NCBI GenBank assembly: GCA_040752815.1
Contig: JBFMGC010000005.1
Coordinates: 1-46,288 of the forward strand
Direction: 5' to 3'
From: Candidatus Zixiibacteriota bacterium
GTDB lineage: Bacteria; Zixibacteria; MSB-5A5; GN15; FEB-12
DNA: 46,288 nt
Translations under genes and position numbers: made by a program
Shown here: positions 8,341 through 37,053 of the stretch, in pieces
Layout of the letters: each line of letters starts with the position of its first letter
Position numbering within the stretch: position 1 is the stretch's first letter
The notes under the pieces: generated by a model
The model's input: only the letters and a program-made list of their open reading frames with translations
Database searches by the model: none
Told to the model about the DNA's origin: nothing

Positions 8341-9348
8341 CTATCGGTGGAGTGAGTAGTTGCCGTAACTGCCAGCAACGCCATCGATCGATGCGAATCG
8401 ACCCTCGCGTATCTGCCTGATCAGTTCCGGCACGGAGTCGCGGACACGCCGCCCCGGCTCCACACCCAGAACAGTTCGGAGCTTCTCAAAAGACACGCGA
8501 TAGTTCCGGGGATCCACTGTTCCGGATTGATACCGGACTTTTCCGGTCGGAAAATGTTCCAAAAGTAGGTCCACCAACATCTTTTTGGTGTAATTCTCGG
8601 GAGTGCTGCCAACATTGAATACCTGACCCCGCACCCTGTCGCTGTCGGCTGCCAGGACTTGCGTGATGATTTCTGCGATGTCAGTCACATGGCAGTACGG
8701 CCGCCAGGTGTCGGAATCGTAAACGAGCAGCTCTCGCCCCAGGGCCAACTCACGCGTGAACTCGTTGACCGTCAGGTCAAAACGCATCCGGGGAGAGATC
8801 CCGTAAGCGGTGGCCGCCCGAAGCACGGTCACGCTGAGATTAAACCTGTTCGCAGGACTGAGCAGATACCGTTCCACCTTGACTTTGGTCTCAGCATAGA
8901 GCGATTTGGGGTTCAGTTCACTTTCTTCGGTAGCAGCTTGGTCGTCGGTACGAAGTCCGTAGTTACTGCAGGTCGACATGAACACCAGCCGTTTGATCGA
9001 ATACTCGCCCAGACTGTCAATGAACTCGAGCGTGCCTGTCTCATTGATCTGCCGCGCCAGATCCGGGTACTTTCGGCAAATCGGGTCTCCCACCAGCGCA
9101 GCCAGAAGGACAACGTCCGTGATCTCCTCCATCGCCCCTTGGGTGTCGCTACGGACACGGAGATCGCCTTTTATAAGCGAAAACATAGAATGTCCGGCCA
9201 GATGATCCAGAGCCGAGGAGTTATCGTAAAGGAGCGCGTCGAGCACGCGCACCCGCCAGCCCCGATCGAGCAGAACCCCGCAAAGAACCGAACCGATATA
9301 CCCCGCCCCGCCTACCACCAGCACGTGCCTGTGTTCCTGCCCGATCAT
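8341..9348 (-). CDS. NAD-dependent epimerase/dehydratase (extended SDR)
   Basis: 335 residues. The N-terminal Rossmann motif GGAGYIG (residues 13-19) binds NAD(P). A Ser/Tyr/Lys active site is visible as MSTCSNYG and YAETK, and substrate-binding segments follow (RAATAYGISPRMRFD, YCHVTDIAEII, FNVGSTPENYTK). This is the extended short-chain dehydrogenase family that epimerises or dehydrates nucleotide sugars in the cytoplasm; the exact substrate cannot be read. It follows hgcB by 16 bases on the same strand, and GGAG lies 10 bases before the ATG, so it is probably cotranscribed with hgcAB. A link to HgcAB function is not established. There is no obvious terminator after it. Confidence 0.85.
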   Translation of the reverse strand: MIGQEHRHVLVVGGAGYIGSVLCGVLLDRGWRVRVLDALLYDNSSALDHLAGHSMFSLIKGDLRVRSDTQGAMEEITDVVLLAALVGDPICRKYPDLARQINETGTLEFIDSLGEYSIKRLVFMSTCSNYGLRTDDQAATEESELNPKSLYAETKVKVERYLLSPANRFNLSVTVLRAATAYGISPRMRFDLTVNEFTRELALGRELLVYDSDTWRPYCHVTDIAEIITQVLAADSDRVRGQVFNVGSTPENYTKKMLVDLLLEHFPTGKVRYQSGTVDPRNYRVSFEKLRTVLGVEPGRRVRDSVPELIRQIREGRFASIDGVAGSYGNYSLHR

Positions 9349-9364
9349 TTATCAATTGCTCCGT

Positions 9365-9664
9365 CTATCCGCAGCAAGTGGGCGATCCGGAGTCGCCGCA
9401 ACAAGGCTCTGTTCCTGTGAGGGCGCTGTAGATAAATGCCGCCGCGCAGCCGACCCCGCTTCGCACCGTGATCGCCCCCGGTTCGCAGTTCTGGGCGCAC
9501 GCCCCGCACTCCATACAGGCGTCGCGATCTACGATAATCGCTCGCTTTTCCTCTATAACGTACACCGCGTGCGGGCAAACCTCGACACACTTCCGGCAGC
9601 CGTTGCATTTTGAGCGGTCCAGCTCGAGCGAGACGACGTTACTTAGGTATCTCAGACCGACCAT
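9365..9664 (-). CDS. hgcB: HgcB, 2[4Fe-4S] ferredoxin of mercury methylation
   Basis: 99 residues. Two classical 4Fe-4S motifs are visible (KCNGCRKCVEVCPHA and ACMECGACAQNCEPGA), then the HgcB-specific GVGCAAA stretch, and a C-terminal tail with two vicinal Cys pairs (EPCCG and PTCCG). HgcB is the obligate partner of HgcA. By established genetics it is thought to reduce the corrinoid of HgcA during transfer of a methyl group to Hg(II), with the terminal Cys pair proposed to handle mercury. ATG at 9664 is chosen because GGGGGAG lies six bases upstream. It follows hgcA by 37 bases. The combination of GVGCAAA and CC tail directly after an HgcA makes the call secure. Confidence 0.95.
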   Translation of the reverse strand: MVGLRYLSNVVSLELDRSKCNGCRKCVEVCPHAVYVIEEKRAIIVDRDACMECGACAQNCEPGAITVRSGVGCAAAFIYSALTGTEPCCGDSGSPTCCG

Positions 9665-9701
9665 TATATCTCCCCCAGGGGGCCGTGCGGATGGCGGGCG
9701 A

Positions 9702-10913
9702 TCACACAATCCTCCCCTCGATCCAGAACATCAATCCGACAGCGGCCGCCGCAATCTGAATTGGAACCGCAACGCGCATCTCTTTTCGCACGCCGGAAGG
9801 CGACGTATAGGTCGAGGCCCCGGTGAAGTTCATCGCAGTGAAACTGGCAACGGCCAGGGCCAGCATATAAGCGGCCGTGACATCGGCCCAGTCAAGTGTT
9901 GAACCGAGGGAAGAGAACAACGCCGCACTTACCGAGGCCAAAACGAGGACACCCGCCCAGGCGCCCTTTGCAGCGAACGCACGACCCGGCAACCACGGAA
10001 GGAGCGCCGGGGTGAGGATCGACCCGCTCGCCAGACCCATTATCAAGACTGCCGAGACCAACAGCCCAACCGATGCCGCCCGATCCAGCGAATACCCGCC
10101 GTCTCCGAAACCGGACACGATCGCCAGCACAGCCGCGATCGGTATCACCCACTTACCCCAACTGATTAGTTCGACCGGAACGAGCGCGAGACGGTCGCGA
10201 AGCCGGAACCGGACCAGCCGCATTTCCGGGGTCGCTTTCATGCCTGAATCCAAGTAAGCCGGAAGATCTCCGGCCCTTATTGGTCCGTAGTGAACCGTAA
10301 ACCCGGTCAGCCGCTTAACCTCGTGGGCCTTCACCCCGGGGGCGCCAAGCTGCGGCAGGATCAGGCTTCGATGCGACACCACCTCGGCCAGACGGGCGGC
10401 CGCAACTCGGCTGACAATCTCCGCGGTTCCAAACGTCCCCTTGCCTGCCGCACACCAGACATTGATGCCTTTGGTATCGAGAACCATGATCCAGCCATCG
10501 CGGCCGCTCAGCGCACCGCGCAAACGATCAAAGCTCATTTTGAAGTTGGCCGAGACGAAAACCGGAGATTCACCTGTAGGATTTCCCACCGCATAAAGGC
10601 CGGGGGCGATAGCGTACCGCATTCGTCCGAGATTCCACCGTACCCGCCAATGCTCCAGCCGATCCCGCCAGGTTATTGATGTAGCGATCCGGGGGATATC
10701 GCCGACAGGGGTGGGGACTTTCCCTATGTAGTCTTCTGTGATGTCGAGATAATGACCTGTCGATGAAGGCACGTCGCCACAGCAGGCTTCAGCAGGCAAC
10801 ACGATCCGCGATGAACCCAGGTCGCTTTGGCTGGAGGCGCGGCGATTGTTCCTCGATAACTCCACAAGCACATTATAACGTACATCCACGCATACCGAAA
10901 CTAAATGGACCAC
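9702..10913 (-). CDS. hgcA: HgcA, corrinoid methyltransferase of mercury methylation
   Basis: 403 residues from the GTG at 10913. The diagnostic cap-helix motif NVWCAAGKG is present (residues 151-159), with Cys154 as the lower corrinoid ligand of this family. Further family blocks follow: SPVFVSANFKMSFD, LILPQLGAPGV, HYGPIRAGDLPAYL, ATPEMR. The C-terminal third has five hydrophobic segments, matching the five-helix membrane domain of HgcA. HgcA transfers a methyl group to Hg(II), giving methylmercury, at the cytoplasmic face of the membrane. The start is unsure: homology begins near residue 55, and a TATAAT (10877-10872) lies inside the long form, six bases before an in-frame GTG at 10865 (see the leaderless note). 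It is divergent from iorA across a gap of about 142 bases. Confidence 0.95.
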   Translation of the reverse strand: MVHLVSVCVDVRYNVLVELSRNNRRASSQSDLGSSRIVLPAEACCGDVPSSTGHYLDITEDYIGKVPTPVGDIPRIATSITWRDRLEHWRVRWNLGRMRYAIAPGLYAVGNPTGESPVFVSANFKMSFDRLRGALSGRDGWIMVLDTKGINVWCAAGKGTFGTAEIVSRVAAARLAEVVSHRSLILPQLGAPGVKAHEVKRLTGFTVHYGPIRAGDLPAYLDSGMKATPEMRLVRFRLRDRLALVPVELISWGKWVIPIAAVLAIVSGFGDGGYSLDRAASVGLLVSAVLIMGLASGSILTPALLPWLPGRAFAAKGAWAGVLVLASVSAALFSSLGSTLDWADVTAAYMLALAVASFTAMNFTGASTYTSPSGVRKEMRVAVPIQIAAAAVGLMFWIEGRIV

Positions 10914-11055: not shown

Positions 11056-12834
11056 ATGAAAGAACTCCTGTCAGGCAACGAGGCAGTCGCGCGGGGAGCT
11101 TTTGAGGCCGGTGTCAGGCTGGCGTCGGGGTATCCCGGCACCCCATCGACTGAGATTCTCGAAACCCTCGCCGAGCGGTTCCCGTCAGTCTACTCTCAGT
11201 GGTCCCCCAACGAAAAAGTCGCGTTCGAGGTGGCGATCGGTGCATCGATCGGCGGGGCCCGCGCACTGTGCACTATGAAGCACGTGGGGTTGAATGTCGC
11301 CGCCGACCCGTATATGACGTTTTCATACACCGGCGTAGGCGGCGGATTTGTGGTAGTCTCCGCGGACGATCCGGAAATGCACTCCTCACAGAACGAGCAG
11401 GACAATCGCATCCTCGCCCGGTTCGCCAAGACCCCGTTTCTCGACCCGTCGGACAGCCAGGAAAGCAAGGACATGCTGCTCGCGGCGTTCGAAATCTCTG
11501 AGCAGTGCGACACGCCGGTTATGCTGCACATGACCACGCGAATCTCACATTCCAAGGGGATTGTCGAATTGGGAGAGCCGCTCAAGCCGCGTGAGCGGAA
11601 GTTCGTCAAAGATCCGGCGAAGTATGTGATGATCCCCGGCCATGCCCGAGGTAGGCATGCGGTGGTGGAGGAGCGACTGGAGAAACTGCGCGAATACGCG
11701 GAGAATTCGCCGCTCAACCGGATCGAAAACAACGGCTCGGATATCGGCATCATCACGGGCGGAATCGCCTATCAGTACGCGAAAGAAGTTGCGCCCGACT
11801 TTGACTATTTCAAAATCGGGTTCGGTAATCCGCTTCCGCTAACCCGTATCGCCGAGTTTGCGAAGAAGCACAAGCGAGTGATCGTGATCGAAGAGCTGGA
11901 GCCGTTCTATGAAGAGCAGATAAAGGCCGCCGGCATTTCGGTCGAGGGAAAGAAGTACTTCGGCGTGATCGGTGAGCTTTCCCCCGCTCGGGTGGCCCGA
12001 GGCCTCGCCGAGGCCGGCTTGATCGTATCGAGTCCAGACTCGCTCATGGACACCGAACCGCTCTTCCCCCGCCCGCCGGTGCTCTGCCCCGGCTGCCCGC
12101 ATCGCGGCGCATTCATGGCGCTGAAGAAACTCAAGGTTGCGGTCACCGGAGACATCGGCTGCTATACCCTGGGTGTGCTCAAGCCGCTCGATGCGCTGGA
12201 CACATGCATATGCATGGGAGCGTCGATCGGCAACGCCATCGGCATGGAGAAAGTTAACGGCGCCGAAAAAGGTGTCGTCGCAGTGATCGGTGATTCGACT
12301 TTTTTCCACTCAGGGATTACCGGCCTCGTGGACGCCGTATACAACAACAGCAACGTGACCGTGATGATTCTGGACAATCGCGCCACCGCCATGACCGGCG
12401 GACAGCAGCACCCGTCCACCGGCAAAACGCTCATGGGCGATGACGCCACGGTCATCGATTTCGAGGCTCTCTGCCGGGGCATCGGCATACGGAACTTCCG
12501 GCGGATCGATCCCTACGATTACGAGGCGTCGCTCGCCGCCATCAAAGAGGAGATCGCCACACCGGGGCCTTCAGTAATAGTCGCGGACCGTCCCTGTGTG
12601 CTCATGCCGCAGCGGATCATGGATGAGCCGTACGTGGTGGATCTCGATCTGTGCAATGGCTGCTCGGCCTGCTTCCGCATCTCCTGTCCGGCGATATCGG
12701 CCTCGAAAGTGACCAATGAACGCGGCAAGCCGAAAGCGGAGATTGATCCGACCATCTGCACCGGCTGCACCTTGTGCGCCCAGATCTGCAAGCCGGAGGC
12801 GATCGTCCTTAAGAGCCAGTTCGTGCAAGTGTAG
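11056..12834 (+). CDS. iorA: Indolepyruvate:ferredoxin oxidoreductase, alpha subunit
   Basis: 592 residues beginning MKELLSGNEAVARGAFEAGV, the usual IorA start; the frame opens upstream at 11002, but family alignment favours 11056. The N-terminal pyrimidine-binding half (GYPGTPSTEI) is followed by the thiamine-diphosphate half with CPGCPHRG, GDIGCYTLG and GDSTFFHSG. It ends in two 4Fe-4S clusters (CNGCSACFRISCP and CTGCTLCAQICKP). The enzyme decarboxylates arylpyruvates from Trp, Phe and Tyr to aryl-acyl-CoA and reduces ferredoxin. It is oxygen-sensitive, fitting an anaerobe. It is first in an operon with iorB, buk and two ptb genes, consistent with amino-acid fermentation with ATP recovery. 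No clear Shine-Dalgarno sequence precedes the start. Confidence 0.95.
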   Translation: MKELLSGNEAVARGAFEAGVRLASGYPGTPSTEILETLAERFPSVYSQWSPNEKVAFEVAIGASIGGARALCTMKHVGLNVAADPYMTFSYTGVGGGFVVVSADDPEMHSSQNEQDNRILARFAKTPFLDPSDSQESKDMLLAAFEISEQCDTPVMLHMTTRISHSKGIVELGEPLKPRERKFVKDPAKYVMIPGHARGRHAVVEERLEKLREYAENSPLNRIENNGSDIGIITGGIAYQYAKEVAPDFDYFKIGFGNPLPLTRIAEFAKKHKRVIVIEELEPFYEEQIKAAGISVEGKKYFGVIGELSPARVARGLAEAGLIVSSPDSLMDTEPLFPRPPVLCPGCPHRGAFMALKKLKVAVTGDIGCYTLGVLKPLDALDTCICMGASIGNAIGMEKVNGAEKGVVAVIGDSTFFHSGITGLVDAVYNNSNVTVMILDNRATAMTGGQQHPSTGKTLMGDDATVIDFEALCRGIGIRNFRRIDPYDYEASLAAIKEEIATPGPSVIVADRPCVLMPQRIMDEPYVVDLDLCNGCSACFRISCPAISASKVTNERGKPKAEIDPTICTGCTLCAQICKPEAIVLKSQFVQV

Positions 12835-14722: not shown

Positions 14723-15637
14723 ATGACACCCGCACCGGTTACTTCTTACGATCAATTGATCGATCGCGCCGTCGCCCTGGCTGCACACGGTCGCCGCAAG
14801 CGCGTAGCGGTTGCCGCCGCGCAGGACGCCGACGTAATTGGCGCGCTTGCCGAAGCTGAGGCCGACGGATTCATCGAAGCGACGCTATTCGGCGACGAAC
14901 CAAAGATCCGTTCGCTGGCGGGCGAAAACCGCAGTGATCTAACGCACCTTACGGTCGTCCACGAGCCCGATATCATGCGGGCCACTCATGCTGCCGTGCG
15001 GTTGGCCGCTGAGAAGAAAGCCGACATCATAATGAAGGGCTTTCTACCCACCTCGGCCATTCTGAAGGTCGTACTCGACAAACAATTTGGTCTTCGCGGC
15101 GCCAATACTCTCTCCCATTGCGCGGTGCTCGATATCCCCGGGTATCACAAGCTGCTTAACTTCACCGACGGTGGCATGATTGTCAAACCGACTGTCGACC
15201 AGAAGATTCAGATTATCGACAACGCCGCGCTGGTCGGCCGGGCGCTTGGGCTTTCTCCGGTCAAGGTGGCGCTTTCGGTAGTGAATACCGAACAGCTTCT
15301 TAGCGACGCCGCACGCAGAGTGCCGAATATGCTCATCGACGGTCCCCTCAGTTTCGAGCTCGCCACCTCTTCGTCGGTGAAAACCAAGGCCGGTCGCGGC
15401 GGGTCGGTTGCCGGAGATACCGACGTCTATGTGGTCGATTCAATCGAAGAATGCAACGTGGTGGCGAAATCGCTGATCAACTTCGCCGACGCAGTGTTCG
15501 CCGGTGTAATTGTGGGAGCGAAGGTGCCGGTATCGTTGGTGTCAAGGACTGATACAGTCAAGAACAAACTGGCGTCGCTGGCGCTGGCTTGCCTGATCGC
15601 CGAGTATTACGCCGAGCCGGAAGGGAATCGAAGCTGA
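14723..15637 (+). CDS. ptb: Phosphate butyryltransferase family enzyme
   Basis: 304 residues of the phosphate acetyl/butyryltransferase family. Visible blocks are ADIIMKGFLPTSAILK, LSHCAVLDIPGYHKLL, FTDGGMIVKPT, LIDGPLSFELA and FAGVIVGAKVPVSLVSR. The enzyme exchanges CoA for phosphate on acyl-CoA, giving the acyl phosphate used by the butyrate kinase upstream. It is probably active, since it keeps the KG(F/L) and DGPLSFE blocks. The hairpin-rich 201-base gap after buk could reduce its expression relative to iorAB. No strong ribosome binding site is seen. Confidence 0.88.
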   Translation: MTPAPVTSYDQLIDRAVALAAHGRRKRVAVAAAQDADVIGALAEAEADGFIEATLFGDEPKIRSLAGENRSDLTHLTVVHEPDIMRATHAAVRLAAEKKADIIMKGFLPTSAILKVVLDKQFGLRGANTLSHCAVLDIPGYHKLLNFTDGGMIVKPTVDQKIQIIDNAALVGRALGLSPVKVALSVVNTEQLLSDAARRVPNMLIDGPLSFELATSSSVKTKAGRGGSVAGDTDVYVVDSIEECNVVAKSLINFADAVFAGVIVGAKVPVSLVSRTDTVKNKLASLALACLIAEYYAEPEGNRS

Positions 15638-15640
15638 GCT

Positions 15641-16576
15641 ATGGATACCCGAATCGACATCCCCGCGGTACACTCATTCGACGCTATCCGAGAACTCGCT
15701 GCGCAGAAGTGTGCGACAAAGAGACCGCGCGCAGCGATAGTCGCCCCTCATGAAGCCGACACACTGCCTGCACTCGCGCGGGCCGTACAACAGGGGCTCA
15801 TAGACCCGACTGTCGTCGGCGATGAGAGGCTGTTCCTGCAAGCAGCCTCGAACTATTACCTCGACGCAACCCGTACGAAGATAATCGACATCAATCAACC
15901 CGACTTGGCGGTAAGAACTGCCGCCAGAATGGCCGCCGCCGGAGAGATCGACATCATAGTTCAGGGCCGGATCGATCCGGATCGAATGGTCGGTTTGCTG
16001 ACCGGTGCCGACTGCGGCATCAGTCCTGCCGGCAGCGTTTTGTCGCATGTTGGCGTACTCATGCCGGTGCGGTATCCAAAACTGATGCTCGTGACCGATG
16101 GCCTGGTTCATGACAGCCCCGATCTGGCGAACAAGATCAGCTTGCTCGGAAACCTGGCAAGGGTCTCGAAAGCATTGGGAATCGCCGATCCGCGCACAGC
16201 AGTTGTGACCGCCGTGGAGGCTATTCATCCTCAGATGCCTGCGACTACTGATGCCGCAGTATTGGCTAAGATGTATGAGCGGGGTCAGATCAAGGGATTG
16301 CGGGTAGATGGCCCGCTGTCGTTCGACATTGCAGTCGATTTCTTTGCTGCCGAATCAAAGGGTATTAGGAACTCAATCGTTGCAGGGCAGGCGGACGCCA
16401 TACTTGCGTCGACCAAGCATGTCGCCCAGGGAGTGTATCAGGCGATGGCGCTGTTCGGCAACTGTGAGACAGGTGGGGTTCTCGTGGGAGGCCTGGTGCC
16501 GGTGGCGATCAGTTTCGCCTGTGAGGCAGGCGACGCGCGATACAATTCAATCATGCTGGCCTGCCTGATGGCGTGA
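15641..16576 (+). CDS. Second phosphate butyryltransferase family enzyme
   Basis: 311 residues, a diverged paralogue of the gene three bases upstream. Matching blocks are EIDIIVQGRIDPDRMVGLL, LSHVGVLMPVRYPK, VTDGLVHDSPDLANK, RVDGPLSFDIA and GGVLVGGLVPVAIS. The KG of the first copy is replaced by QG, and the active-site surroundings differ. It may prefer another acyl chain (branched or aromatic), form a hetero-oligomer with its neighbour, or be less active; the sequence alone cannot decide. It is the last gene of the operon and is followed by a hairpin-rich gap. Confidence 0.82.
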   Translation: MDTRIDIPAVHSFDAIRELAAQKCATKRPRAAIVAPHEADTLPALARAVQQGLIDPTVVGDERLFLQAASNYYLDATRTKIIDINQPDLAVRTAARMAAAGEIDIIVQGRIDPDRMVGLLTGADCGISPAGSVLSHVGVLMPVRYPKLMLVTDGLVHDSPDLANKISLLGNLARVSKALGIADPRTAVVTAVEAIHPQMPATTDAAVLAKMYERGQIKGLRVDGPLSFDIAVDFFAAESKGIRNSIVAGQADAILASTKHVAQGVYQAMALFGNCETGGVLVGGLVPVAISFACEAGDARYNSIMLACLMA

Positions 16577-17242: not shown

Positions 17243-18124
17243 ATGATGCGGTTGCGCTTACCATTGCTTGCAGTGCTCCTACTCCTGCTGGCAGTCGGGT
17301 GCAGCAAAGACTCACCGACCGTATCCGACAAGAGCGATCTCCATTCGCTCGCGCTGGTGCCGCGGCCTGAGTTTGTCGACACTCGTCCCGAGGCAGTGAT
17401 CGAGGCTTATGTTCTGAAGCCGACCCAGGAAATGCTCAGGCTGGTCGCCGCGAAACCCCCTGCGCCCGACCCGGGTCCCACCTATGATCCGAACCCGAAC
17501 CCGCCGCACAAGTACGCCTACATAGTCGGAATTTCCGATTACGAGGGCACGGCGAACGATCTGCAGTTCTGCGATGACGACGCTCATGACATGCGGGCGT
17601 ATCTGCAGGGCGAGGGATTCACGATCAGAATCGATGTGGATCGCTCGGCTACCGCGCAGGCGATTGTCGATGGCCTAAACTGGTTGGCAGGACAGGCCGT
17701 GCCTGGGGACGAAATAGCGTTCTGCTACTCCGGGCATGGTAACAAGTACGGCGCCGATGGTTCCTCGATTATCAGCACCGACCTGTACTACATTCCCCAC
17801 GCCTACGTGATGGGCATCATCAACTCGGCGAACTGCACCAAGGTACTGGTGACGCTGGATGCCTGTAAGATCGGGAATTTCCTATCTGACGGTAATGACG
17901 GCAGCTTTATCGCTACGGCTTCTAACAGCACGCTATCTTACGACGCCCCCGATCTGCAGAACGGAGCTTGGACCTACTATTTCCTCGAGGGAGCCGGCAT
18001 TTACACTTATGCCGAGGATATCGCTCCCTATGCGGAAGACGGCATGAAAGCCTGGGCCGCGCTTTACAAACTGCGCGTCAGCCCGGCACATACCGACAAG
18101 TATTACGGCAAGATGGACATCTGA
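17243..18124 (+). CDS. Caspase-like (peptidase C14) lipoprotein
   Basis: 293 residues. A lipoprotein signal peptide ends in the lipobox LAVGC (Cys20). A Pro-rich linker (residues 72-88) is followed by a caspase-fold domain: YAYIVGISDYEGTANDL, then FCYSGHG with catalytic His165, and VLVTLDAC with catalytic Cys208. It is a bacterial metacaspase/orthocaspase-type cysteine peptidase, predicted to be membrane-anchored in the periplasm or on the surface. An acidic first pocket typical of metacaspases (Arg/Lys specificity) is plausible but not proven. AAGGAGG lies before the tandem ATG-ATG start. It is a single gene with its own promoter and terminator. The target is unknown. Confidence 0.85.
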   Translation: MMRLRLPLLAVLLLLLAVGCSKDSPTVSDKSDLHSLALVPRPEFVDTRPEAVIEAYVLKPTQEMLRLVAAKPPAPDPGPTYDPNPNPPHKYAYIVGISDYEGTANDLQFCDDDAHDMRAYLQGEGFTIRIDVDRSATAQAIVDGLNWLAGQAVPGDEIAFCYSGHGNKYGADGSSIISTDLYYIPHAYVMGIINSANCTKVLVTLDACKIGNFLSDGNDGSFIATASNSTLSYDAPDLQNGAWTYYFLEGAGIYTYAEDIAPYAEDGMKAWAALYKLRVSPAHTDKYYGKMDI

Positions 18125-32219: not shown

Positions 32220-32318
32220 TGCTTGTGCCGAGTTCGGGCCAATGGCCGGCGATGCGCGGCGAACATTATGTTCTCTCCAGTGGTTCTCTAGACTAGAGTG
32301 TTCCGCCGGAGAGGTGCC

Positions 32319-33371
32319 ATGCCAAAACTAACAGCTATCGCCACTGCCGTGCCGGCGTACCGGGTGTCTCAGGATCAGGCCCGTACCTTTGCCGCACGCC
32401 TGTTTGGCGAACACCTTTCCGATATCGATCGCCTTATGCCCTTGTTTGACAACGCGGGAATCCAGTCACGCTATTTCTCGGTGCCGGTGGAGTGGTTCGC
32501 CACCGACCATTCGCTGGACGAAAAGAATCAACTTTATATCGAGTCGGCCACCCGCCTGGGGGCTGAGGCCGCCCAGCAAGTTCTGAATCGAACCGGCACC
32601 GACTCTGCTCAAATCGATTACATCATCTACGTAAACACCACTGGTCTGGCGACACCGTCGATCGATGCGCGTCTAATCAATGTCCTCGGCTTACGCCGAG
32701 ATATACGCCGCACCCCTATCTGGGGACTCGGCTGCGCCGGCGGCGCGGCGGGCCTCGCCCACGCGTATCACTACCTGCTGGGACACCCGGACCACCGGGT
32801 TCTGCTGGTGGCGGTCGAACTATGCGGTCTGACATTTATCCGGGACGACTATTCCAAGAGCAACCTGGTAGCATGCGCCTTATTCGGCGAAGGAGCGGCC
32901 GCAACTCTCGTTTGTGGCGATGAGCTTCACTCTGAGGGACTCACTATACTGGACACTAAAAGTAGCTTTTACCCCGATTCCTTGAGCGTCATGGGCTGGA
33001 ACATCGTGGCTCGCGGTATGCAGGTCGTGTTTGACCGTCGCATTCCCGATATCGTCGCTCAGCACGCCGCGGCCGAACTGGATTCTTTCCTCGCCAAACA
33101 CAATCTGGATCGCGCGAGCATCAACTACTTCTTGTACCACCCCGGAGGCGTGAAAGTGGTTCAGGCGTACGAATCAGCTTACGGCGTCAACGGCGACCTC
33201 TTTGCCCTCTCGCGCGCGATCCTTCGCGACTACGGCAACATGTCATCGGTGTCGGTGCTCTTTGTCATCAGCCGCTTTTTGCAGGAGAATACGCCGCAGC
33301 GGTCGGGTTACGGTCTTGTCTCCGCCCTCGGGCCGGGCTTCTGCTCCGAGTCGCTTCTGGTGCAATGCTAA
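32319..33371 (+). CDS. Type III polyketide synthase (chalcone/stilbene synthase family)
   Basis: 350 residues with the thiolase fold and all three catalytic residues: Cys139 in WGLGCAGGAAG, His274 in FLYHPGG, and Asn307 in YGNMSS, followed by SALGPGFCSE near the C-terminus. It condenses malonyl-CoA units on an acyl-CoA starter in the cytoplasm; bacterial members often make alkylpyrones or alkylresorcinols. ATG 32319 is preferred, with GAGAGG five bases before it. The methyltransferase or oxidoreductase partners usually found next to bacterial type III PKS genes are absent here. The product cannot be predicted. Aryl-acyl-CoA from the IorAB pathway is one possible starter (speculation). Confidence 0.9.
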   Translation: MPKLTAIATAVPAYRVSQDQARTFAARLFGEHLSDIDRLMPLFDNAGIQSRYFSVPVEWFATDHSLDEKNQLYIESATRLGAEAAQQVLNRTGTDSAQIDYIIYVNTTGLATPSIDARLINVLGLRRDIRRTPIWGLGCAGGAAGLAHAYHYLLGHPDHRVLLVAVELCGLTFIRDDYSKSNLVACALFGEGAAATLVCGDELHSEGLTILDTKSSFYPDSLSVMGWNIVARGMQVVFDRRIPDIVAQHAAAELDSFLAKHNLDRASINYFLYHPGGVKVVQAYESAYGVNGDLFALSRAILRDYGNMSSVSVLFVISRFLQENTPQRSGYGLVSALGPGFCSESLLVQC

Positions 33372-35819: not shown

Positions 35820-36770
35820 CTATCTCGTCAATCCATTGCCGCCATCTGACGTCGCCTGCGACGGTAAGTCGCTACCATGGACCGACGCATGACATCGAGT
35901 ACACTTCGTCAGCAATCCCGCTTTCCATGCGTCGGGAGTCGAGACGCCTGCGCGCTCCGGCGCCAAAGGAACACTGAAAGCACCATCGACCCCTTCTATC
36001 GTGGCGTGGAAGTGCATATCATGGCAGTTAAGACACAAAGTGGGCTCTGTTGCTCTGAGCAGGTTGTCCGCAACAGTCCCATGTGGCTTGTGACATATCA
36101 TGCAGTCTTCAGTTACCGGGGCATGTTCATACACGAACGGCCCCTCAACATCGGCATGGCAACTCAGGCAAAGCTCCCGATTGCTGTCACCCTGAGTCAA
36201 AGCCACTGAGCCGCCGTGCGGATTGTGGCAATCCTGGCAAGTCAATCTGCCCTCAGCAATGGGGTGATGGGAAGGCATGCCGGCTGCCGCTCTTACATCA
36301 GTGTGGCAGGAGTAGCACATATCCGGTCCGGCGGTCACCTTGGAGTCGTATCCCCGACTATGGACTTGGTGGCATGAAGCACAATTCACTCCTGCAGAGT
36401 TGTGATGCGAGAAAGGCCACGAGTCGAATTGAGGGTCGTCGTGACACGACAAACAGAGCTCCTTGCCCCCGAATTGATCCATGCGTCCGGGATTGATTAT
36501 CAGATTGGGATCTGACTGTTCGACGTGAGCAGCACCATCGGCATGACAGGCCTCGCACATTTTGTCGGCTAATGCCGGCCGATCGCTCAAATACTTGCCA
36601 TGTGCGGTAGCTTTAAACTCCGCGGCCACTTTCTCGTGGCAAGTGGCGCAGGTCTCGTCAGGAATGCTACCGAGCACCGACAGCCAGCCAGTAGTGACCA
36701 AGCCGGAAACAAGCAGTCCCAACCTCGATAGCGAACGCACGAACCGGCGGAACTTACTGAAACATCTCAT
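35820..36770 (-). CDS. Decaheme c-type cytochrome (MtrA/DmsE-like)
   Basis: 316 residues with ten CxxCH haem-binding motifs in order: CATCH, CEACH, CLSCH, CASCH, CYSCH, CQDCH, CLSCH, CMICH, CLNCH, CTRCH. ATG 36770 is chosen because GGAG lies 8 bases upstream and a Sec signal anchor follows (FVRSLSRLGLLVSGLVTTGWLSV). Ten haems and the adjacent large barrel match the MtrA-MtrB type of conduit, where the cytochrome sits in the porin and wires the periplasm to the outside. That would allow extracellular electron transfer or use of an external donor. No outer-surface cytochrome (MtrC-like) is present in the window. Confidence 0.9.
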   Translation of the reverse strand: MRCFSKFRRFVRSLSRLGLLVSGLVTTGWLSVLGSIPDETCATCHEKVAAEFKATAHGKYLSDRPALADKMCEACHADGAAHVEQSDPNLIINPGRMDQFGGKELCLSCHDDPQFDSWPFSHHNSAGVNCASCHQVHSRGYDSKVTAGPDMCYSCHTDVRAAAGMPSHHPIAEGRLTCQDCHNPHGGSVALTQGDSNRELCLSCHADVEGPFVYEHAPVTEDCMICHKPHGTVADNLLRATEPTLCLNCHDMHFHATIEGVDGAFSVPLAPERAGVSTPDAWKAGLLTKCTRCHASVHGSDLPSQATSDGGNGLTR

Positions 36771-37053
36771 GTTACGGTCTCCTTCATACACCCAACCAGC
36801 GCTCTGGCAGCCCAACCTCGAGACTGAAGAGCCGGTCGGCATATTAGTTATTACTAACAAACATAGCCTTGAACCGCTTGTCAAGTTCAATTGTGAGTTC
36901 AGACGTGGGAGTCGGTTGATGTTTGGCGATAGCGCGACGTGAATTGCGGCCCCAAGTATTGCCCGGGTAAGCCGATAAGTGCTAACAGGTAAGTGAATTG
37001 GCCGACAGGCCAATGTAACAAATCCGCTGTAGAAAGTGACAGGAGAGTCTCAA
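36771..37053. other. Divergent regulatory region between cytochrome operon and pckA
   Basis: 283 bases. A perfect TTGACA (36884-36879, minus strand) lies at a -35 position for the cytochrome operon, though no good TATAAT follows. A perfect 7-bp hairpin ATTGGCC/GGCCAAT with a GACA loop (36997-37014) lies 40 bases before the pckA start and may be a leader structure or operator. Confidence 0.4.

Follow-up and report, generated by a model that had tools for sequence, protein, structure and literature searches.

A canonical hgcAB gene pair in a Zixibacteria genome and its predicted role in mercury methylation

Two open reading frames on the minus strand at positions 9365-10913 of the window (the whole 46,288-nucleotide stretch of DNA analysed here) raise the question of whether a member of the Zixibacteria, a phylum that has received little study, carries a true mercury-methylation gene pair and, if so, whether methylmercury formation can be predicted for its host. 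It is already known that hgcAB exists as a gene pair, that it tends to be transferred and that its carriers are not confined to strict anaerobes. We find that the two frames encode a bona fide, intact HgcA and HgcB, correctly named, and our main reading, to which we give a probability of roughly 0.8, is that they are canonical HgcAB with a predicted function in mercury methylation.

Identity of the gene pair and its key residues

The gene for the corrinoid protein, hgcA (9702..10913, minus strand), is an open reading frame of 403 codons whose product scores 446.1 bits (NCBIfam hmmscan, E 6.7e-134) against the HgcA equivalog NF040863, with a curated cut-off of 275 bits and profile positions 1-323 of 325 covered. 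The gene for the dicluster ferredoxin, hgcB (9365..9664, minus strand), scores 115.2 bits (E 8.9e-34) against the HgcB equivalog NF040864, for which the cut-off is 99 bits. At these E values chance matches can be set aside, and a whole-genome search recovered the window HgcA at 100%. The complete pair proposed in a preliminary description of this DNA is thus borne out, with both frames present and both curated cut-offs exceeded; of its gene limits the frames stand, and the starts of HgcB, HgcA and the divergent iorA had to be corrected. The hgcB frame was first delimited as 9365-9709 (minus strand, 114 codons), adjoining hgcA, but its start is most likely ATG 9664, preceded by GGGGGAG and giving 99 amino acids, rather than TTG 9709, since cysteine numbering from ATG 9664 equals that of Pseudodesulfovibrio mercurii ND132, a verified methylator, exactly. 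For HgcA the start probably lies downstream of the first codon of the frame (GTG 10913), at GTG 10865 or GTG 10802; alignment with its relatives begins near residue 16-19 of the window frame, and C44 is kept in 90% or more of the sequences (alignment A3), which places the likely start of translation at or upstream of GTG 10802.

The corrinoid domain of HgcA is homologous to that of CFeSP, so a CFeSP/CdhD-type corrinoid protein, or an HgcAB-like fusion, could in principle be taken wrongly for HgcA. The model for the fusion (NF043039) gives 199.5 bits for HgcA against a cut-off of 285, and the genes are separate. The model for CFeSP gamma/CdhE, membership of which takes a full-length match over an N-terminal 4Fe-4S domain plus barrel, gives 65.9 bits (cut-off 306), over the last 124 profile positions only. 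With both scores far under their cut-offs, split genes, a cysteine-bearing cap helix, a five-helix membrane domain and a full-length match to ND132 HgcA, this identity is already refuted. Among 132 Zixibacteria genomes no CFeSP paralogue was found, the PF03599 search of the phylum returning HgcA loci only, and there is therefore no such paralogue to mistake for HgcA. The preliminary description had proposed placing HgcA against CdhD-type proteins; it groups with HgcA and not with CdhD/CFeSP.

The motif NVWCAAGK (10440..10463, minus strand) conforms to the family pattern N(V/I)WCA(A/S)GK, in which the cysteine is strict, and residues N151, V152, W153, C154, A155, A156 and G157 are invariant across 21 HgcAs. 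The cap helix NVWCAAGKG described earlier is thus present, its cysteine falling at residue 154; Cys154 is the equivalent of ND132 Cys93 and the predicted lower axial ligand of cobalt, a role described in PMC7305189 and PMC11588087. The five C-terminal membrane segments (9708..10181, minus strand; residues 245-266, 276-307, 313-333, 342-361 and 372-402) are found alike by hydropathy and in an AlphaFold2 model. That model, built with 21 HgcAs as input, has a mean pLDDT of 80.3 and shows a Rossmann-type corrinoid domain followed by five long helices, with low confidence for the first 52 residues, which lie partly upstream of the probable start. Its best match in the PDB is ND132 HgcAB (9a0b_A; E 1.7e-22, 45% identity over 334 columns), and the matches ranked 2-6 are all CFeSP chains.

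Counted from ATG 9664, the cysteines of HgcB lie at 20/23/26/30, 50/53/56/60, 73, 88/89 and 97/98, and the protein, encoded downstream of hgcA, has the two CxxCxxCxxxC(P) motifs, the strict Cys73 in GVGC (9446..9448, minus strand) and a C-terminal tail with two vicinal pairs, CC88-89 and CC97-98 (9371..9403, minus strand), so that the 4Fe-4S motifs, GVGC and vicinal cysteines noted earlier are all there. Mutagenesis in ND132 showed that full methylation requires the cap-helix cysteine, Cys73 of HgcB and one or more of the tail cysteines (Cooper et al. 2020, PMC7305189), and on sequence comparison every residue with mutational support has an equivalent in the window proteins. A further vicinal pair, C44-C45 of the HgcA frame (10779..10784, minus strand), lies in the N-terminal tail; CC occurs in 23 of 41 HgcA N-terminal tails, as against 4.2 after shuffling. 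In a selenoproteome review (2026; PMC13188914) HgcA appears with a CU motif and HgcB with GVGU; the CU motif is perhaps, by our own reasoning, the counterpart of this pair. In the tails that lack CC we saw no read-through evidence for selenocysteine.

Host genome, genomic site and probable origin

The contig that carries the window is 111 kb long and belongs to a genome of 3.19 Mb, with a completeness of 100% and a contamination of 0.15%. The name Candidatus Zixiibacteriota is borne by two genomes of its class (CP070813.1, JAJRZO010000449.1), one of which (G114) has the same DNA over the hgcAB region as CP070813.1, titled "Candidatus Zixiibacteriota bacterium isolate bin119". On the left of the pair lies an NAD-dependent epimerase/dehydratase gene (8341..9348, minus strand; PF01370), whose syntenic orthologue in a sister species (G038) is 61% identical, and on the right the divergent iorA (11056..12834, plus strand; TIGR03336, 719 bits), whose orthologue there is 79% identical. 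The start of iorA was moved from 11002 to ATG 11056, the two species sharing the beginning MKELLSGNE. The host phylum is confirmed as Zixibacteria, and this synteny and the low contamination place the contig in a clean bin, as the preliminary description had supposed for both host and contig. An error of binning or assembly, the contig deriving from a known methylator, would fit the Armatimonadota and Planctomycetota sequences among the nearest to the window HgcA by path, but it is very improbable given a contig of this length, flanks syntenic on both sides with a sister Zixibacterium at 61-79% protein identity, contamination of 0.15% and HgcA in 16 further Zixibacteria.

The window genome is accordingly no lone case. 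The HgcA cut-off is exceeded in 17 of the 132 Zixibacteria genomes searched, itself included, and any HgcA match is found in 18 genomes and 15 of 85 genera; the suggestion that this host widens the range of methylators is right in that true hgcAB occurs in the phylum, and needs amending in that it is shared by other members. A search of the main text of openly available papers for hgcA with Zixibacteria or Zixiibacteriota yielded, in the text consulted, no description of hgcAB for the phylum; one match named Zixibacteria in a table of mer genes, and another was a review covering prokaryotic phyla in general. In view of that scope we claim no priority.

The sister species has the same order of epimerase, iorA, iorB, buk, ptb1 and ptb2 and no hgcAB, the gap between epimerase and iorA being about 315 bp there and 1707 bp in the window. 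The absence is real because the site lies on one contig, though that genome is 77% complete. In the remaining HgcA-bearing Zixibacteria hgcAB is found at other genomic sites. A single clade for the HgcAs of the four carriers in the window family is rejected (AU p 0.023, and 0.007 without long branches), and the window HgcA has no well-supported sister in the tree; a single origin of HgcA in all Zixibacteria (AU p 0.33 and 0.27) and a clade of the window HgcA with those of G042 and G043 (AU p 0.30) are not rejected. The empty site together with the scattered family sequences argues for horizontal acquisition, and our best reading is that hgcAB was probably gained, from a donor microbe, as a minimal two-gene cassette, a reading we favour over loss in the sister species. 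Such transfer would be typical behaviour, since widespread transfer of hgcAB has been reported (McDaniel et al. 2020, PMC7438021; Cooper et al. 2020, PMC7305189). As to a mobile element, no direct repeats flank hgcAB, and no relatives of HgcA were found on 72,556 plasmids or in 50,697 phage records. Precise insertion boundaries were sought in a global DNA alignment of the intergenic regions of the two species and then dropped, the alignment being mostly noise in which the coding ends alone align. Whatever its history, the empty site offers a natural with/without pair for studying the gain of hgcAB.

Base composition (GC 0.60-0.61 and GC3 0.67-0.72 for hgcAB; 0.56-0.63 and 0.67-0.76 for the neighbours) lies within the neighbours' range and is therefore uninformative on transfer. 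It bears on another explanation, that the copy was recently acquired and is unexpressed or non-functional, since a match to the neighbours is expected of a resident gene under selection, and both frames are intact with all key residues kept. The absence of hgcAB from the sister species, the lack of an adjacent regulator, of the two upstream genes (X and Y) seen in relatives and of a clear promoter match, and the lack of cobamide synthesis speak for such a copy, which we regard as improbable. With no ArsR or other regulator adjacent, expression of the window hgcAB is nevertheless uncertain.

Metabolic setting and predicted function

The neighbourhood of hgcAB includes iorAB, a homologue of butyrate kinase and a diverged tandem of two phosphotransbutyrylase-like genes (14723-15637 and 15641-16576) that scores under the curated cut-offs and stands next to buk/iorAB across the family. 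Also in the window are genes for a caspase-domain (Peptidase_C14) protein (17243-18124), a chalcone/stilbene synthase-like type III polyketide synthase (32298-33371) and a multihaem c-type cytochrome with paired CXXCH and an MtrC/MtrF-like domain match (35820-37013), the last putatively for extracellular electron transfer. The host had been called fermentative, which is incomplete, for its genome also carries a complete aa3 oxidase operon (L132:5553-15362, G000:C1; ctaA, a subunit IV gene, coxC, coxA, coxB and SCO1, with coxA at 700.5 bits against 670.75 for TIGR02891), a gene for an NrfD-type quinol-oxidoreductase-like subunit, and nosZ (936.8 bits against 625 for TIGR04246) with nosD. The nos genes lie in a nosZ-nosD-ABC cluster with an unclassified COX1-like subunit next in line (L133:121-7509, G000:C20). 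Most known carriers of hgcAB lack such genes for the use of oxygen and nitrous oxide. An oxygen-sensitive complex is not usually met together with oxygen-respiration genes, and this counts against methylation. Terminal oxidases are on record in hgcA carriers among Marinimicrobia, Nitrospina and Deltaproteobacteria (PMC8163782). Within Zixibacteria, a restriction of hgcA to strict anaerobes was considered and rejected, a strong COX1 match being found in 10 of 18 HgcA-bearing genomes and 77 of 132 overall.

CobS was not found in the window genome and its best BtuB-like receptor scores below its cut-off. Methylmalonyl-CoA mutase is present, and the cell therefore uses B12; with CobS absent, complete cobamide is presumably imported, by a putative route. 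A search for MerB gave no match, but the control genomes were equally without one, which makes this negative uninformative.

By analogy with ND132, the two 4Fe-4S clusters of HgcB would pass low-potential electrons to the cobamide of HgcA, giving Co(I); S-adenosylmethionine would methylate the cobalt, whose lower axial ligand would be the thiolate of Cys154 in the cap helix; the methyl group would go on to Hg(II) delivered by the vicinal cysteine pairs of the HgcB tail and possibly of the HgcA N-terminal tail; and methylmercury would leave via HgcB Cys73. We infer cobamide binding and methylation of the window HgcA from the biochemistry of ND132, where the methyl donor of HgcAB is SAM and not methyl-THF (PMC11588087); the rest of the cycle follows the proposal in PMC7305189. 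With SAM as donor Wood-Ljungdahl genes are not needed, and the absence here of CFeSP and of that pathway's corrinoid protein is no obstacle. Earlier wording that hgcAB is a generally sufficient marker of methylation is fair for a split pair with all key residues, as a prediction of the activity.

In six Zixibacteria the genes X and Y lie directly upstream of hgcAB, with an arsR-type gene before them in most (X-Y-hgcA-hgcB runs at L112:5640-9270, L113:5347-8348, L115:6919-10158, L116:8005-11204, L119:5891-8997 and L122:6341-9101), and they also lie close to hgcA in one Armatimonadota contig (L025:9126-10368). X, which matched no Pfam family, combines a membrane helix and cysteine-rich tails with a thioredoxin-like domain, the last seen in a modest structure model (mean pLDDT 62.6), and Y is a DsbD/ArsG-like membrane protein. 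Strong Y homologues occur in seven genomes, six of them with HgcA, and X in eight, an enrichment that is partly circular because genes adjacent to hgcAB went into building the profiles. A Zixibacterium without hgcA (G106) has the order arsR-X-Y-arsM (L137:3647-6590), arsM encoding an arsenite methyltransferase. Neither X nor Y was found in the window genome, and its hgcAB has no arsR-X-Y neighbours. We propose X-Y as candidate partners of HgcAB, in thiol redox chemistry or in the delivery of Hg(II); for the step by which Hg(II) reaches HgcAB the module is thereby a concrete candidate.

These neighbours also bear on an explanation in which the proteins are true HgcAB with a native task other than mercury methylation, in other metal(loid) or thiol chemistry, methylmercury being incidental or absent in nature. 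In relatives hgcAB follows arsR and neighbours of Ars type, ArsR is reported to control hgcAB in response to arsenic (PMC10349881), and hgcAB gives no mercury tolerance in tested methylators (PMC7305189); against this, the mercury-handling vicinal cysteine pairs are conserved throughout, and a different native role alone would not prevent mercury methylation. We consider it unlikely, though the weightiest of the alternatives. If the genes work in mercury methylation, predicted methylmercury producers extend to a phylum unnamed in the available text of current hgcA surveys and include cells with oxygen and nitrous-oxide respiration genes, which bears on where along redox gradients methylmercury can form. 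A wider hypothesis, which we put forward tentatively as possible but short of an even chance, is that Zixibacteria are an unreported mercury-methylator phylum in which a minimal hgcAB cassette is mobile between sites and lineages, including into species that respire oxygen and N2O facultatively, and that some members have an uncharacterised ArsR-controlled X-Y membrane module for general metal(loid) methylation (with hgcAB in six genomes and arsM in one).

Relation to known systems

The CFeSP large subunit/CdhE resembles the window HgcA in its corrinoid-binding fold (2ycl, about 26% identity) and differs in having neither the cap-helix cysteine nor the membrane domain. The hgcAB of Marinimicrobia, Nitrospina and SAR324 (ISME J 2021, PMC8163782) likewise belong to hosts with terminal oxidases, in other phyla. 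Other Zixibacteria hgcAB (for example CP070813.1 and JAJRZO010000449.1) share phylum and gene pair, with HgcAs 48-58% identical, but differ in genomic site, and six have upstream X-Y, mostly with arsR, where the window has none. The window pair differs from that of ND132 in its two CC pairs in the HgcB tail, the cysteine-pair-bearing N-terminal extension of HgcA and the lack of an adjacent ArsR, and its host in having an aa3 oxidase and nosZ and no CFeSP, whereas the domain plan, the cap-helix cysteine, the five membrane helices, HgcB cysteine positions 20-60 and 73 and the vicinal-cysteine tail are common to both, the HgcAs being 45% identical.
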